DNA of 64,000 nt from Microbulbifer sediminum (GTDB lineage Bacteria; Pseudomonadota; Gammaproteobacteria; Pseudomonadales; Cellvibrionaceae). Under the pieces are notes generated by a model. The model ran no database searches. It saw only the letters and a list, made by a program, of their open reading frames with translations, and had not been told where the DNA came from. This document shows positions 38,046 to 43,179 of the stretch, one piece after another. Positions within the stretch are counted from its first letter, which is position 1, and the number at the start of each line of letters is the position of its first letter. The stretch is taken from assembly GCF_021729035.1 (NCBI RefSeq), contig NZ_JAJSAP010000003.1:186001-250000 (forward strand), given 5' to 3'. Made by a program: the position numbers and the translations under genes.

Positions 38046-38274
38046 GAGCAATACCGGAAAAGATTTATGCACTGGAATCAAAGGGGAGACCCTGGCCGGA
38101 ACAGTTGCAGGACCGGTGCGACTATTCGTTCAAAAAAGTCCGCCTCAATGCCCCTGAGCCCATTGACGCTATTGATGCAAATAAGCCAGGGCAATTCTTG
38201 CCATATTGACGCTGCTTACCAAACCGGTGCAGCTGGGCATCACTGATTATTCCTTGTACACGGAGGGGATACTA

Positions 38275-38814
38275 ATGAGCCAGGGCTTTGACCCGAAACC
38301 CTTTATTCGTACCATTCCGGACTGGCCCGAACCCGGCGTGCAGTTTCGGGATATTACCACCCTGCTGGAAAATGCCCGGGCTTTCCGCTGTGTGATCGAT
38401 ACCCTGGTGCAACGTTATTTTGAAGCGGATATCAGCGCGGTGGTCGGTGTCGATGCCAGGGGTTTTATCCTGGGCGCACCTTTGGCCTACGAGTTAAAGA
38501 CCGGCTTCGTTCCTGTCCGCAAAAAAGGCAAGCTGCCCTTTGACACCATTACCGAAAGCTATCAACTGGAATACGGCACCGCCGAAGTTGAATTGCATGC
38601 CGACGCCCTGCAAGCGGGGGATAGGGTGGTACTGGTAGATGACCTGATTGCCACCGGAGGCACCCTGCTGGCAGCCAGCAGCCTGATCAAGAGACTGGGG
38701 GCGGAAGTAGTTGAAGCTTGCGCGATTATTGACTTGCCAGACCTGGGCGGCAGTAAAAAACTAAGGCAACAAGGGCTTAAAGTATTTTCTCTCTGCGGAT
38801 ACCAAGGTGAATAA
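38275..38814 (+). CDS. apt: Adenine phosphoribosyltransferase
   Basis: Converts adenine and PRPP to [23 protein letters not shown] is the N-terminal hood and [16 protein letters not shown] the PRPP loop; [18 protein letters not shown] is also conserved. 179 residues is normal. GGAGGGG precedes ATG 38275. Gene and flanks (38046-39196) are visibly less GC-rich than the neighbours, which may point to a different origin. Confidence 0.96.
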
Positions 38815-39196: not shown

Positions 39197-39547
39197 TCAC
39201 AGCGTCGGTATTGGCATACACTCCATCACTTCCACGCAATCCCCGGGGAAGATGCTGAAGTGCGGATGTCTTTCAAAGAGCTTTGCGGCCGCCTCGTGGG
39301 TTTCCGCCTTGATGATGACGTAGCCGGTCATGTTGTTGCTGGTGTCGCGGACACCGGCGGGATCAATCCGCTTGGTTTTGCCAAGCGGTCCCCCGGCTTC
39401 CACCAGGATATCCTTATTGGTTTCCATCCAGTCGCCCCAGGCGGCCATGCCTTCCTGGATGCGCTCCTGACGCTCTTCTTCGGACAGGTGTTCCCACCCT
39501 TTCATTGATCCGGGGGTGCCGAGATACATGGCGAGGAAGTTTTTCAC
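39197..39547 (-). CDS. YCII/DGPF-domain protein (second copy)
   Basis: A 116-residue YCII-like protein: KNFLAMYLGTPGSMKGW at the start and GYVIIKAETHEAAAKLFE near the end fit the DGPF/YCII fold (dimeric ferredoxin-like). The biochemical role is unknown. Last gene of the ECF sigma-linked group (sigma factor, DGPF, SRPBCC, DGPF), 50 bases after the SRPBCC gene on the same strand. It probably shares the ECF-type promoter at 40640-40666. Confidence 0.85.
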   Translation of the reverse strand: MKNFLAMYLGTPGSMKGWEHLSEEERQERIQEGMAAWGDWMETNKDILVEAGGPLGKTKRIDPAGVRDTSNNMTGYVIIKAETHEAAAKLFERHPHFSIFPGDCVEVMECMPIPTL

Positions 39548-39597
39548 GGTTGCTCCTTACATTGCTGATGTCGATTGCTTGTTTATCTGCACAGATA

Positions 39598-40041
39598 TCA
39601 CTCACTGGTTTCCGGCTCGACCAGGCGAGCCAGTCCCTCCAGGGAGTCCTGCCAGCCCAGGTAGCACATTTCCACGGGGATCATTTCGGGAAGGCCCTCG
39701 GCGACGATGGTGAGCTCGGTACCACAGGACACGGCCTCCAAAGTGACCGTTACCTGCATGGTGCCGGGGAGGTTCGGGTCGTCGAAGCTGTCGGAGTAGC
39801 GGATCCGTTCGTTCTCGACCAGCTCCAGGTATTCGCCGCCGAACGAGTGGCTCTGGCCATTGCTGAAATTGATAAATGATGCCCTGAAGGTACCGCCCAC
39901 TTCCGGCTCCAGGCAGTCGAAATTGGCGTAGAAGCCATCTGGCGGCAGCCACTTGGCCATGGCCTGGGGATTCAGGAAGGCGCGGTAAACGCGCTCTGCC
40001 GGGGCCCGAAGGATGCGATGTAGATGCACGGTGCCGGTCAT
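39598..40041 (-). CDS. SRPBCC (AHSA1-like) protein
   Basis: A 147-residue START-like protein. HRILRAPAERVYRAFLNPQ, AMAKWLPPDGFYA and GGTFRASFINF are typical of the AHSA1/CalC-type SRPBCC group, which binds hydrophobic ligands or partner proteins. ATG 40041 overlaps the stop of the upstream DGPF gene (ATGA), so the two are coupled. Membership of the ECF module suggests a joint stress or detoxification role, not shown. Confidence 0.87.
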   Translation of the reverse strand: MTGTVHLHRILRAPAERVYRAFLNPQAMAKWLPPDGFYANFDCLEPEVGGTFRASFINFSNGQSHSFGGEYLELVENERIRYSDSFDDPNLPGTMQVTVTLEAVSCGTELTIVAEGLPEMIPVEMCYLGWQDSLEGLARLVEPETSE

Positions 40042-40454
40042 GGTGCCTCTCCTGTTTCTTCTTCCACTGGTTCGGCCGCATTGCCGCCGGCCTGGTTTCC
40101 GGTTTCCACCAGCTCCCGCGCCGGGCGGACTTCCACCGAGCCGTAACGTGCCGGCGGGATCTTGCCGGCCAGGGCAATGGCTTCGTTGAGGTCCCTGGCT
40201 TCGAGCATGTAAAAGCCGGCCAGCTGCTCCTTGGTCTCGGCAAAGGGGCCGTCGGTAACCGTCACGCGGTTGTCGCGCACCCGCACGGTGGTCGCTGCGC
40301 TGGTGGGCAGCAGTGGGCTGCCGGTAATGTAGTGGCCGTCTTTGCTGAGGCCCTCGACACAGGCAATACATTCCCGGTTGAGGGCATCCCATTCCTGCTG
40401 GGACTTCTGCTCCATAAGCTTTTCGTCGTAATAGACTAGTGCCAGGTATTTCAT
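40038..40454 (-). CDS. DGPF/YCII-domain protein (first copy)
   Basis: A 138-residue YCII-related protein with KYLALVYYDEKLMEQ at the start, VTDGPFAETKEQLAGFYML (the DGPF motif itself) and ARDLNEAIALAGKIP. This is the form usually encoded beside ECF42 sigma factors. It is preceded by the ECF-type promoter at 40640-40666, a 185-base leader, and a GAGGAG ribosome site close to the ATG. Function unknown. Confidence 0.92.
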   Translation of the reverse strand: MKYLALVYYDEKLMEQKSQQEWDALNRECIACVEGLSKDGHYITGSPLLPTSAATTVRVRDNRVTVTDGPFAETKEQLAGFYMLEARDLNEAIALAGKIPPARYGSVEVRPARELVETGNQAGGNAAEPVEEETGEAP

Positions 40455-40639
40455 TCTGTGCTCCTCATTTTTTGCTAGCCGCTGTTTCGGTACGGTTGTT
40501 CTATTCCATGCAGCTCTCTAGCAGGCCAAGCTCCCGCTTCAGTGCCCATTGTTTTGTGCCCCCATAGTGCCCAAACAGGCAGAAGGCCACTGTGATCCAC
40601 TGTGGGCTGCATTGTTAAATTTGTGCGCCTTGATAAATA

Positions 40640-40666
40640 GTCGAACAGGATTGGTGGAATTCGACA
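40640..40666 (-). promoter_or_regulatory. ECF42-type promoter of the DGPF-SRPBCC-DGPF operon
   Basis: On the minus strand, TGTCGA (40666-40661) is followed after exactly 17 bases by CGAC (40643-40640). From memory, ECF42 target promoters have TGTCGA at -35 and CGA plus T or C at -10. The site lies in the 248-base gap between the sigma gene and its DGPF neighbour, pointing toward the latter. I saw no second copy before the sigma gene. Confidence 0.72.
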
Positions 40667-40702
40667 GGGGGGTGAAATTTTTCTGGATTTTTTCGGAATT
40701 GG

Positions 40703-41956
40703 TTAGCCGACATCCAGCTCGGCCAGGCGGCGCGCAAGGAATCGCTGTTCCGGTCCCTGCTGTACCAGCTCCAGTGCGCGCCGGTAGGCGGCGCGCGCTT
40801 CATCTTTTCGGTCCAGGCGGCGGTGGAGGTCGGCACGGGCGGCGTGGGACAGGTGATAGTCGATGAGCTCTCCCCGGGCGAGCAGGCTATCTATCAGGTG
40901 CAGACCCTGTGCGGGGCCATCTCGCATCGCCACCGCCACCGCACGGTTGAGCTCGATGACTGGTGACGGGGTCAATGTGAGCAGGGCATCATACAGGCCG
41001 ACGATCTGTGGCCAATCGGTGGCCTCCACGGAGTCGGCTTCAGCATGCAGCGCGGCAATAGCGGCCTGCAGGGTGTAGGGGCCGAAACGACGGCTGGCCA
41101 GTGCACGCACTACCAGGTTGCTGCCCTCGCTGATCTGTTGCCGGTCCCAGAGGGCGCGGTCCTGCTGTTCCAGCAGGACAAGGTCGCCATCGGCGGTGAC
41201 GCGGGCGGCGCGGCGCGAGTCCTGCAGCAGCAACAGCGCCAGCAGGCCCATGGCCTCAGGTTCCGGCAACAACGTGCACAGCAGGCGCGCCAGGCGAATG
41301 GCCTCCGCCGCCAGGTCATGGCGGAGCAGGGTGTCACCAACGGAGGCGGAATAGCCTTCATTGAAGATCAGGTAGATGACCTGCAACACACTCTCAAGGC
41401 GCTCGGCTAGCTGGTCCGCTTCCGGCACCTCGTAGGGAATCCCGGCATCGCGGATCTTCGCCTTGGCGCGCACGATGCGCTGGGCCAGGGTCGGGGTGGC
41501 GGTAATAAAAGCGCGGGCGATTTCTTCGGTGGTCAGGCCGCACACTTCGCGCAGGGTCAGGGCCAGCCGCGCCTCCGGAGCGAGGCCAGGGTGGCAGCAG
41601 GTAAAGATCAGGCGCAGGCGGTCGTCCTCTATACCGTGCTCCTCTTCCTCCCCGGCCACCAGTTCTGCTTCCAGCCGTTCGGCGACATCCTCGTAGGATA
41701 CGTCAAAGCGGGCCTTGCGACGCAGCTGGTCGATCGCCTTGAAGCGCCCGGTGGAAACCAGCCAGGCACGGGGGTTATCGGGTATGCCGCCACCTGGCCA
41801 TTGCGTGAGCGCTGCGGCGAAGGCATCGTGCAGGGCTTCCTCGGCCAGGTCAAAATCACCAAGCAGGCGAATCAGGGTGGAGAGCACACGACTTGATTCT
41901 TTCTGGTAGAGCTCGTTAAGCCAGGCTTGGGATACCGGGGGCATAGGCGTAATCAC
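40703..41956 (-). CDS. ECF RNA polymerase sigma factor, ECF42 type, with long C-terminal extension
   Basis: A 417-residue sigma factor. Region 2 reads LIRLLGDFDLAEEALHDAFA and AWLVSTGRFKAIDQLRR; region 4 is LTLREVCGLTTEEIARAF followed by ITATPTLAQRIVRAKAKIR. After about residue 190 comes the long helical, TPR-like extension (DUF6596) with LYDALLTLTPSPVIELNRAV. ECF42 proteins lack an anti-sigma factor and are thought to be controlled through this extension. Genes for DGPF proteins follow on the same strand, the classic ECF42 partner. GTG 41956 is the longest start; ATG 41944 is equally possible. Confidence 0.93.
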   Translation of the reverse strand: MITPMPPVSQAWLNELYQKESSRVLSTLIRLLGDFDLAEEALHDAFAAALTQWPGGGIPDNPRAWLVSTGRFKAIDQLRRKARFDVSYEDVAERLEAELVAGEEEEHGIEDDRLRLIFTCCHPGLAPEARLALTLREVCGLTTEEIARAFITATPTLAQRIVRAKAKIRDAGIPYEVPEADQLAERLESVLQVIYLIFNEGYSASVGDTLLRHDLAAEAIRLARLLCTLLPEPEAMGLLALLLLQDSRRAARVTADGDLVLLEQQDRALWDRQQISEGSNLVVRALASRRFGPYTLQAAIAALHAEADSVEATDWPQIVGLYDALLTLTPSPVIELNRAVAVAMRDGPAQGLHLIDSLLARGELIDYHLSHAARADLHRRLDRKDEARAAYRRALELVQQGPEQRFLARRLAELDVG

Positions 41957-42160
41957 TGATGTGGGGTGCTCTATTGAGCCTGCACACAGACTTTGTTGTA
42001 GGTTTCCAGGAACTGTGAATTAGCCACCTCTGGAGCCTGAACCTGATTACAGCATTATGTAAACCGGGTGTTAAGTAGTATATGGCGCAAAGAATGGATT
42101 TTTGATATTCATGTTTCCACATTCGAACATTGTCCATCTGTAAAAGTAGCGAAAAGCCTC

Positions 42161-42529
42161 ATGATCGACTTCGATAACAAGACCATCTTCAAGCTCAAGC
42201 AAAAACAGGCCTACGCCGAAAAGGTAGCCGACCTGTTGATGGACGGCGAGGAAGTACTGGACGCCTTCAAGTCCATGCGCGACGGCGTGGTGTTTACCAG
42301 TAAGCGCATTATTGCGGTCAATATCCAGGGCATTACCGGCAGCAAGAAGGCCTTTACCTCCCTGCCTTACAAGAACATCGTGGCCTTCTCCATCGAGACT
42401 TCCGGTACGCTCGACATAGACAGTGAGCTGGAACTCTACTTCTCCGAGGTGGGCAGGGTAAGGTTTGAGTTCAGCGGCAAGGCCCGCATCAAGGATATTG
42501 CCCACTATATCGGACGTTATGCCCTTTAA
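42161..42529 (+). CDS. Bacterial PH-domain protein
   Basis: A 122-residue protein matching the small bacterial PH domain family (DUF1696/YvbH-like): VLDAFKSMRDGVVFTSKRI, then TSLPYKNIVAFSIETSGTLD and FEFSGKARIKDIAHYIG. Function unknown. ATG 42161 matches family length; the frame runs farther upstream but into AT-rich sequence unlike coding DNA. It precedes the DUF6624 gene by 44 bases. Confidence 0.85.
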   Translation: MIDFDNKTIFKLKQKQAYAEKVADLLMDGEEVLDAFKSMRDGVVFTSKRIIAVNIQGITGSKKAFTSLPYKNIVAFSIETSGTLDIDSELELYFSEVGRVRFEFSGKARIKDIAHYIGRYAL

Positions 42530-42573: not shown

Positions 42574-43179
42574 ATGAAAGCAATAAAAATAATCGCTATC
42601 GCACTGGGATTGTCGGTCAGTGTATTTACGCTGGCCACTGACAAAAGTGCGATTCAGGCTGAGCTGGAAGCCATGCTTGATTCAGACCAGAAACATCGCG
42701 CGGCAATCATCGCGGCCATCAGGGAGCACGGAAATGACCACCCTTCGGTCAAGGCCCTGTGGGAAAAACAGATTCCCATCGATAAGCACAACGCTGCCAG
42801 GCTGGAAGAGATCGTATCCGAATATGGCTGGCCCCGGAAAACTGATATGGGCGAGAAAGCCGCCAAGTCCGCGTTCCTGATCGTGCAGCATGCACCGGCC
42901 GAGACCCAGAAAAAGTACCTGCCAGAAATGCGGAAGGCCGCAAAGGAAGGCGAGGCCGACCTGAGGAACCTGGCCATGCTGGAAGACAGGGTGCTGGTCT
43001 TCGATGGCAAGGAGCAGCTGTATGGCACCCAGGTGGCCAGGAGTGATTCCGGCGCGTTCAACTTCCTCCCGATTCAGGATATCGAGGAGCTGGATGCGAG
43101 AAGGGAGAAAATGAACCTGGGTCCCATCGCCGAGTATGCAGAGCGTTTCGGCATCCCCAGCCCGGTTAAAGACAAGTAA
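42574..43179 (+). CDS. DUF6624 secreted protein
   Basis: A 201-residue protein with a signal peptide (hydrophobic residues 5-20). The mature part shows DQKHRAAI, YGWPRKTDMGEKAAKSAF, LIVQHAPAE, NLAMLEDRVLVFDGKEQLYG, the DUF6624 pattern with a conserved YGTQ. No enzymatic activity is known. AAGGAAAG stands before the ATG. Confidence 0.85.
   Translation: MKAIKIIAIALGLSVSVFTLATDKSAIQAELEAMLDSDQKHRAAIIAAIREHGNDHPSVKALWEKQIPIDKHNAARLEEIVSEYGWPRKTDMGEKAAKSAFLIVQHAPAETQKKYLPEMRKAAKEGEADLRNLAMLEDRVLVFDGKEQLYGTQVARSDSGAFNFLPIQDIEELDARREKMNLGPIAEYAERFGIPSPVKDK

Follow-up and report, generated by a model that had tools for sequence, protein, structure and literature searches.

Which genes answer to the sigma factor encoded within positions 39197-41956 of a 64,000-nucleotide stretch of the Microbulbifer sediminum genome (contig NZ_JAJSAP010000003.1, positions 186,001 to 250,000; here called the window), and do they all lie beside it? 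The original prediction described a self-contained stress or detoxification unit at this locus: an extracytoplasmic function (ECF) sigma factor of the ECF42 type, followed by a DGPF gene, an SRPBCC gene, and a second DGPF gene. Reading of the window bore out the extent of the module, the order of its four genes, and their shared (minus) strand. The module is real, and its gene arrangement is beyond chance: at the 16 loci in the genus that carry a sigma factor of the window type, a YCII (DGPF) gene follows sigma in all 16, the third gene in 14, and the AHSA1 (SRPBCC) gene in 10. From comparative sequence analysis, we consider it likely that this ECF42-type sigma factor drives the three genes as an operon through the promoter TGTCGA-N17-CGACTA and that the regulon in the genus is probably of a detoxification type. 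The module type itself is known; what is new relative to the original prediction is a clear promoter and good comparative evidence for the SRPBCC gene as a target.

A putative ECF42 promoter follows the sigma factor gene

The sigma factor gene (40703..41956, minus strand) encodes an ECF-type core with regions 2 and 4 only, as Sigma70_r2 (3.5e-9), Sigma70_r4_2 (1.4e-9), and TIGR02937 all matched above their cutoffs. A C-terminal extension begins near residue 186, has the roughly 200-residue length of ECF42 extensions, and matches DUF6596 (2.3e-37). Solved structures matched the sigma core only and none covered the extension. The predicted protein of about 417 residues with a TPR-like extension was thus correct as to the long extension, but TPR_2 and TPR_8 matched only below curated cutoffs, leaving a weakly TPR-like C terminus, and the protein is probably slightly shorter. 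Translation from GTG 41956 gives 417 amino acids and from ATG 41944 gives 413; the latter is likelier, because orthologues start at the position equivalent to ATG 41944 (the nearest, L176/L041, have 413 amino acids). Among named relatives, Microbulbifer yueqingensis is closest, with a sigma factor that is 92% identical. Architecture, the YCII neighbor, and the promoter together support the assignment to ECF42, as first proposed.

ECF42 promoters combine a TGTCGA-type −35 element with a CGA- or CGT-type −10 element. The 248-nt gap between the sigma and YCII genes contains a site that fits this pattern, TGTCGA-N17-CGA at 40666..40641 on the coding strand, whose extended form, CGACTA, reaches 40638 (−35 at 40666..40661, −10 from 40643). 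By eye, an A/T tract can be made out upstream of it, near 40675-40682. Since the site (40638..40666, minus strand) is located between sigma and YCII, it is predicted to serve the three downstream genes and not sigma.

To place this site in context, 160 de-duplicated sigma loci were classed by the position of YCII or AHSA1, and the exact motif was sought from −20 to +200 relative to the end of the sigma match. It was present at 54 of the 65 loci with YCII or AHSA1 only downstream, at 1/68 with YCII only upstream, at 2/24 with neither gene, and at 1/3 with such genes on both sides. Pooled, loci without downstream YCII or AHSA1 had the motif in 3/92 cases, versus 54/65. The same-strand background in these loci, 51 per 1,709,657 bases, corresponds to 0.0066 per 220 nt and includes genuine promoters elsewhere. 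Among window-type loci of the genus, 15/16 carried the exact motif after sigma; by eye, these loci share an A/T tract before the motif and a −10 element of CGACTA or a near form. The boxes are conserved while the spacers have diverged. Directly before sigma, the motif was found in 1/65 loci, and no copy directly precedes the window sigma gene. Because sigma lies outside the transcript and lacks such a promoter, self-activation is not indicated.

In the mechanism that we propose, sigma would be activated, probably via its DUF6596/TPR-like extension, and would then direct RNA polymerase to TGTCGA-N17-CGACTA at 40666..40638. A single transcript encoding YCII, the AHSA1/SRPBCC protein, and a distant YCII-like protein would result; with the sigma gene outside this transcript, no positive loop is indicated. 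We infer the activation itself, the signal, and the chemistry.

The YCII and AHSA1 genes as predicted targets

The first downstream gene (40038..40454, minus strand; 138 amino acids) matches Pfam YCII at 1.8e-20 and contains the DGPF motif; its nearest solved structure is 1s7i (PA1349). At two relatives' loci, a YCII-glyoxalase fusion gene stands between sigma and YCII (L042:2654-3487 and L046:7322-8212). The second gene (39598..40041, minus strand; 147 amino acids) matches AHSA1 at 1.9e-28 (99.7 bits against a cutoff of 22.1) over profile positions 1-125 of 125, with 1z94 as its nearest solved structure. Its ATG overlaps the YCII stop codon as ATGA, in agreement with the predicted coupling.

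We then compared the occurrence of sigma (counted at E ≤ 1e-40) with that of YCII (E ≤ 1e-20), AHSA1 (E ≤ 1e-15), and the third gene (E ≤ 1e-10) in 48 genomes of the genus. Sigma was present in 26 and truncated in one of them (G095), leaving 25 with a full-length sigma; in G087 the sigma match crosses one stop, yet the reading frame spans 443 amino acids. YCII was found in 25/25 genomes with full-length sigma and in 0/23 others. AHSA1 was found in 18/26 genomes with sigma and 1/22 without, and the third gene in 19/26 and 2/22, respectively.

Several genomes have these operons at a distance from sigma. A same-strand copy of the N17 motif precedes the first start codon by 61-200 nt in all eight intact unlinked operons of genomes with a full-length sigma (L207, L208, L209, L210, L213, L214, L215, and L243). 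In genomes without an intact sigma, AHSA1 or third-gene copies had the motif in 0/3 cases (L211 in G100, L212 in G080, and L156 in G095); at 88% completeness, the G100 genome may contain a sigma that was missed. A truncated AHSA1 gene in G098 (L216) likewise has no motif. In G095 (L156), a deletion seems to have taken the sigma C terminus, the promoter, and YCII, while AHSA1 and the third gene remain behind the truncated sigma. These comparisons show, at the level of sequence, a conserved predicted promoter whose occurrence depends on the presence of sigma. The sigma-unlinked AHSA1 genes that carry their own promoter in sigma genomes make the SRPBCC gene a well-supported target of sigma, and its proposed place in the regulon is borne out.

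YCII accompanies full-length sigma without exception, even when the two are unlinked or the sigma belongs to another lineage, and this also fits a different role for YCII, that of a partner that binds the extension and controls sigma rather than acting mainly as an enzyme. The operon would then be chiefly a feedback device. In the available part of its text, a review proposes that YCII takes part in regulation and notes YCII domains fused to other ECF sigma factors (PMC8999054). That two relatives have YCII fused to a glyoxalase domain favors an enzymatic role; a feedback function, although compatible with sigma-driven expression of the operon, seems to us rather unlikely. Less probable still is that sigma meaningfully controls YCII alone, with AHSA1 and the third gene as passengers on the transcript. 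Only YCII tracks full-length sigma perfectly, and AHSA1 is not beside sigma at 6/16 window-type loci, but at five loci away from sigma (L207, L209, L210, L213, and L215) AHSA1 comes first after a motif copy of its own. Moreover, 20/160 loci (11 from the genus, 9 from elsewhere) have a gene related to AHSA1 on the sigma strand, no more than 3 kb from sigma; no such evidence was found for the third gene. A coincidental motif, with the operon transcribed from a housekeeping promoter instead, is very improbable. In its favor are the four loose motif matches in the window (1.63 expected; 6/100 shuffles reach four). Against it stand the constant position and spacing at many loci, the retention of the boxes where spacers have diverged, and the sigma dependence; the sole sigma-70-like site found falls within the sigma gene and is at shuffle level.

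The third gene is probably a distant YCII relative

The third gene (39197..39547, minus strand; 116 amino acids) starts 50 nt after AHSA1. The original prediction called it a second DGPF copy. Whereas a domain search identified the first gene as a DGPF-bearing YCII protein, the third protein lacks that motif and any Pfam match at 0.001, and BLASTP against the window YCII gave E = 0.34. Its match to Pfam YCII reached E = 0.0014 and 19.5 bits, with a cutoff of 24. All 7 aligned orthologues matched YCII (E up to 10; best, 8.1e-7), and iterated profiles of YCII and of the third gene converged. A search of the third-gene profile against solved structures returned nothing significant (best E, 0.43). 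The third gene is thus not a second DGPF copy and, by these profile comparisons, is probably a distant YCII relative. The one pointer to its membership in the regulon is its position in the operon.

The predicted regulon is scattered across the genus

The extended motif TGTCGA-N17-CGACYA was next counted across the genus, with the reversed pattern as a control. The 25 genomes with full-length sigma contained 89 matches (control, 17), the 22 sigma-less genomes contained 9 (control, 35), and G095 contained 1 (control, 1). The difference between sigma and sigma-less genomes was significant (Mann-Whitney P = 7.6e-8). Targets were classified for 98 of the 99 matches, one in G078 being left out. A gene of the reference set followed within 30-330 nt in 72/88 cases in sigma genomes, 0/9 in sigma-less genomes, and 1/1 in G095; this split is partly circular, because the reference set was drawn from genes behind sigma-genome matches, whereas the raw counts are not circular.

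Named from Pfam, the families behind the extended motif were YCII (18 and 9 genomes for the two nearest references), a glyoxalase-like protein (16, including G095), ABC (5), RND membrane-fusion (4), DUF1428 (4), AHSA1 (3), MATE (3), and two GST types (2 and 2), with one genome each for two hydrolases, a DsbA-like protein, a DoxX-like protein, and DUF4287. The glyoxalase-like gene (at least 67% identity) is present in 17 genomes, none of them among the 22 without sigma. The exact motif lies 69-87 nt before its ATG in 16/17, and G081 has AGTCGA. A 55% relative of this gene in G093 has no motif, and the gene was not found in the window genome at E ≤ 1e-35. Elsewhere in the genus, then, copies of the predicted promoter are scattered in front of genes for glyoxalase-like, YCII, AHSA1, GST, DUF1428, hydrolase, and efflux proteins. 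Given these families, the output would most likely deal with toxic chemicals that are reactive or hydrophobic, which makes the detoxification role of the original prediction plausible; the chemistry itself is something that we infer.

In the window genome, the exact extended motif occurs once, at the sigma-linked operon, which is apparently all that this genome retains. The unextended motif showed no excess over the control (138 versus 123 matches with N16-18), and the contexts of its 27 N17 matches held no second convincing target; one lies 168 nt before a gene (at L229) that we take to encode a phosphoglycerate mutase. Of the matches to the extended motif with one mismatch, the one examined closely, AGTCGA...CGACTA, falls inside a long reading frame, presumably a type I modification gene. 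A short tandem duplication on contig C8 (L223:1450-1720) accounts for two identical matches and holds the unextended motif in each unit, and by reading alone we take its units to be repeated 3' parts (remnants) of tRNA-Cys. "Self-contained" therefore describes the window genome, with one extended promoter and no second convincing site, but not the genus, with its scattered targets.

Several observations weigh against the mechanism that we propose. Eleven of the 65 downstream-class loci lack the exact motif; they include M. yueqingensis, the nearest relative, with AGTCGA in place of TGTCGA, and some loci with the motif farther downstream (e.g., L121, L134, L140, and L061). Among the 68 YCII-upstream loci, a relaxed motif precedes YCII in just 19. 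In the window genome, neither the unextended N17 motif (27 matches versus 23 for the control) nor the extended motif with one mismatch (20 versus 29) exceeded its control. In 8 of the 48 genomes, sigma is present and AHSA1 is absent, and the Fisher P values for co-occurrence (8e-13 for YCII, 4e-6 for AHSA1, and 8e-6 for the third gene) ignore ancestry. The reversed-pattern controls also differ between sigma and sigma-less genomes, in the opposite direction (17 versus 35; P = 0.004), so composition differs between the two groups. Despite a truncated sigma, G095 retains the motif ahead of the gene for its glyoxalase-like protein. Finally, in the part of the report available, inactivation of Pseudomonas putida ECF-10 raised antibiotic resistance two- to fourfold and increased biofilm formation, a result not readily reconciled with a protective role for efflux (PMC4613276).

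Sigma lineages and the surroundings of the module

A tree of 69 sigma proteins, with no classified ECF42 reference among them, placed the 16 window-type sequences of the genus in one well-supported clade and 8 others in a second, while the sigma of G110 grouped with a sequence from another genus of the family. The 25 full-length-sigma genomes thus fall into three lineages of 16, 8, and 1. Because second- and third-lineage genomes hold YCII/AHSA1 operon orthologues with the motif, the data suggest that sigma genes may have been exchanged while their targets kept their promoters. In G110, a decayed C-terminal remnant (residues 354-417) of a window-like sigma (L207:4618-4426) adjoins the AHSA1 promoter, with a PH-domain gene nearby as in the window, and another ECF42-type sigma is encoded elsewhere in the genome. 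A wider synthesis, which we hold tentatively and at slightly less than an even chance, is that ECF42 may act in this genus as a swappable master switch for detoxification, with three lineages, one scattered promoter code, sigma genes lost or replaced, YCII as the obligate partner, and a regulon shrunk to one operon in the window.

The leader between promoter and YCII (40455..40637, minus strand) is present in a single copy in the window genome and is therefore no genome repeat; it had no Rfam match, and its predicted fold was not unusual (z-score, +1.07). It is 91% identical in M. yueqingensis and partly conserved in G110, G099, and G077, at about the level of coding sequence. The module is flanked by genes assigned by Pfam to a phosphoribosyltransferase (38206-38814) and a bacterial PH-domain protein (42068-42529), and a DUF6624 gene (42574-43179) lies near it. 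No anti-sigma gene was among the Pfam-annotated flanking genes; no search aimed at anti-sigma factors was made.

Comparison with known systems

The scattered, detoxification-type regulon is a more interesting part of the result than the module, which is of a known type. According to the review, the interaction partners of the ECF42 extension await identification (PMC8999054). By linking ECF42 to a single promoter and to genes of the glyoxalase-like, GST, SRPBCC, and efflux kinds, the present comparative map singles out toxic chemicals, reactive or hydrophobic, as a candidate class of signal. It also supplies reporter promoters, with related sigma-less genomes as natural controls. The matches listed from the open-licence literature included no paper describing an ECF42 regulon of Microbulbifer.

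The named ECF42 examples in the part of the review seen are Sven_0747, Sven_4377, and Sven_7131 of Streptomyces venezuelae and ECF-10 of P. putida; there the extension is called essential, its partners unidentified, and YCII a likely participant (PMC8999054). The window module resembles these, so far as the excerpts describe them, in its ECF core, its C-terminal extension of about 200 residues, and its nearby YCII gene. Unlike in those systems, the window sigma gene precedes the operon promoter and lies outside the transcript, and AHSA1 and a distant YCII gene belong to the operon. ECF41 is alike in being an ECF sigma with a regulatory C-terminal extension (PMC8999054, in part), but that extension is SnoaL-like, whereas the window sigma has a DUF6596/TPR-like one.

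RpoE10, an ECF42 sigma of Sinorhizobium meliloti, provides an independent experimental precedent. According to the portion of that report available, its overexpression raised four genes at least 2-fold, including one for a hydrophobic-ligand-binding protein and two for glyoxalase-like proteins, without apparent activation of the operon that encodes RpoE10 itself (PMC6180224). On the same partial account, its promoters are of the TGTCGG-N17-CGT kind. Likenesses to the window system thus include the promoter, the lack of observed self-activation, and a small regulon with hydrophobic-ligand-binding and glyoxalase-like proteins. The arrangement differs: in S. meliloti, YCII precedes sigma in one operon, whereas in the window YCII follows sigma behind a promoter of its own.

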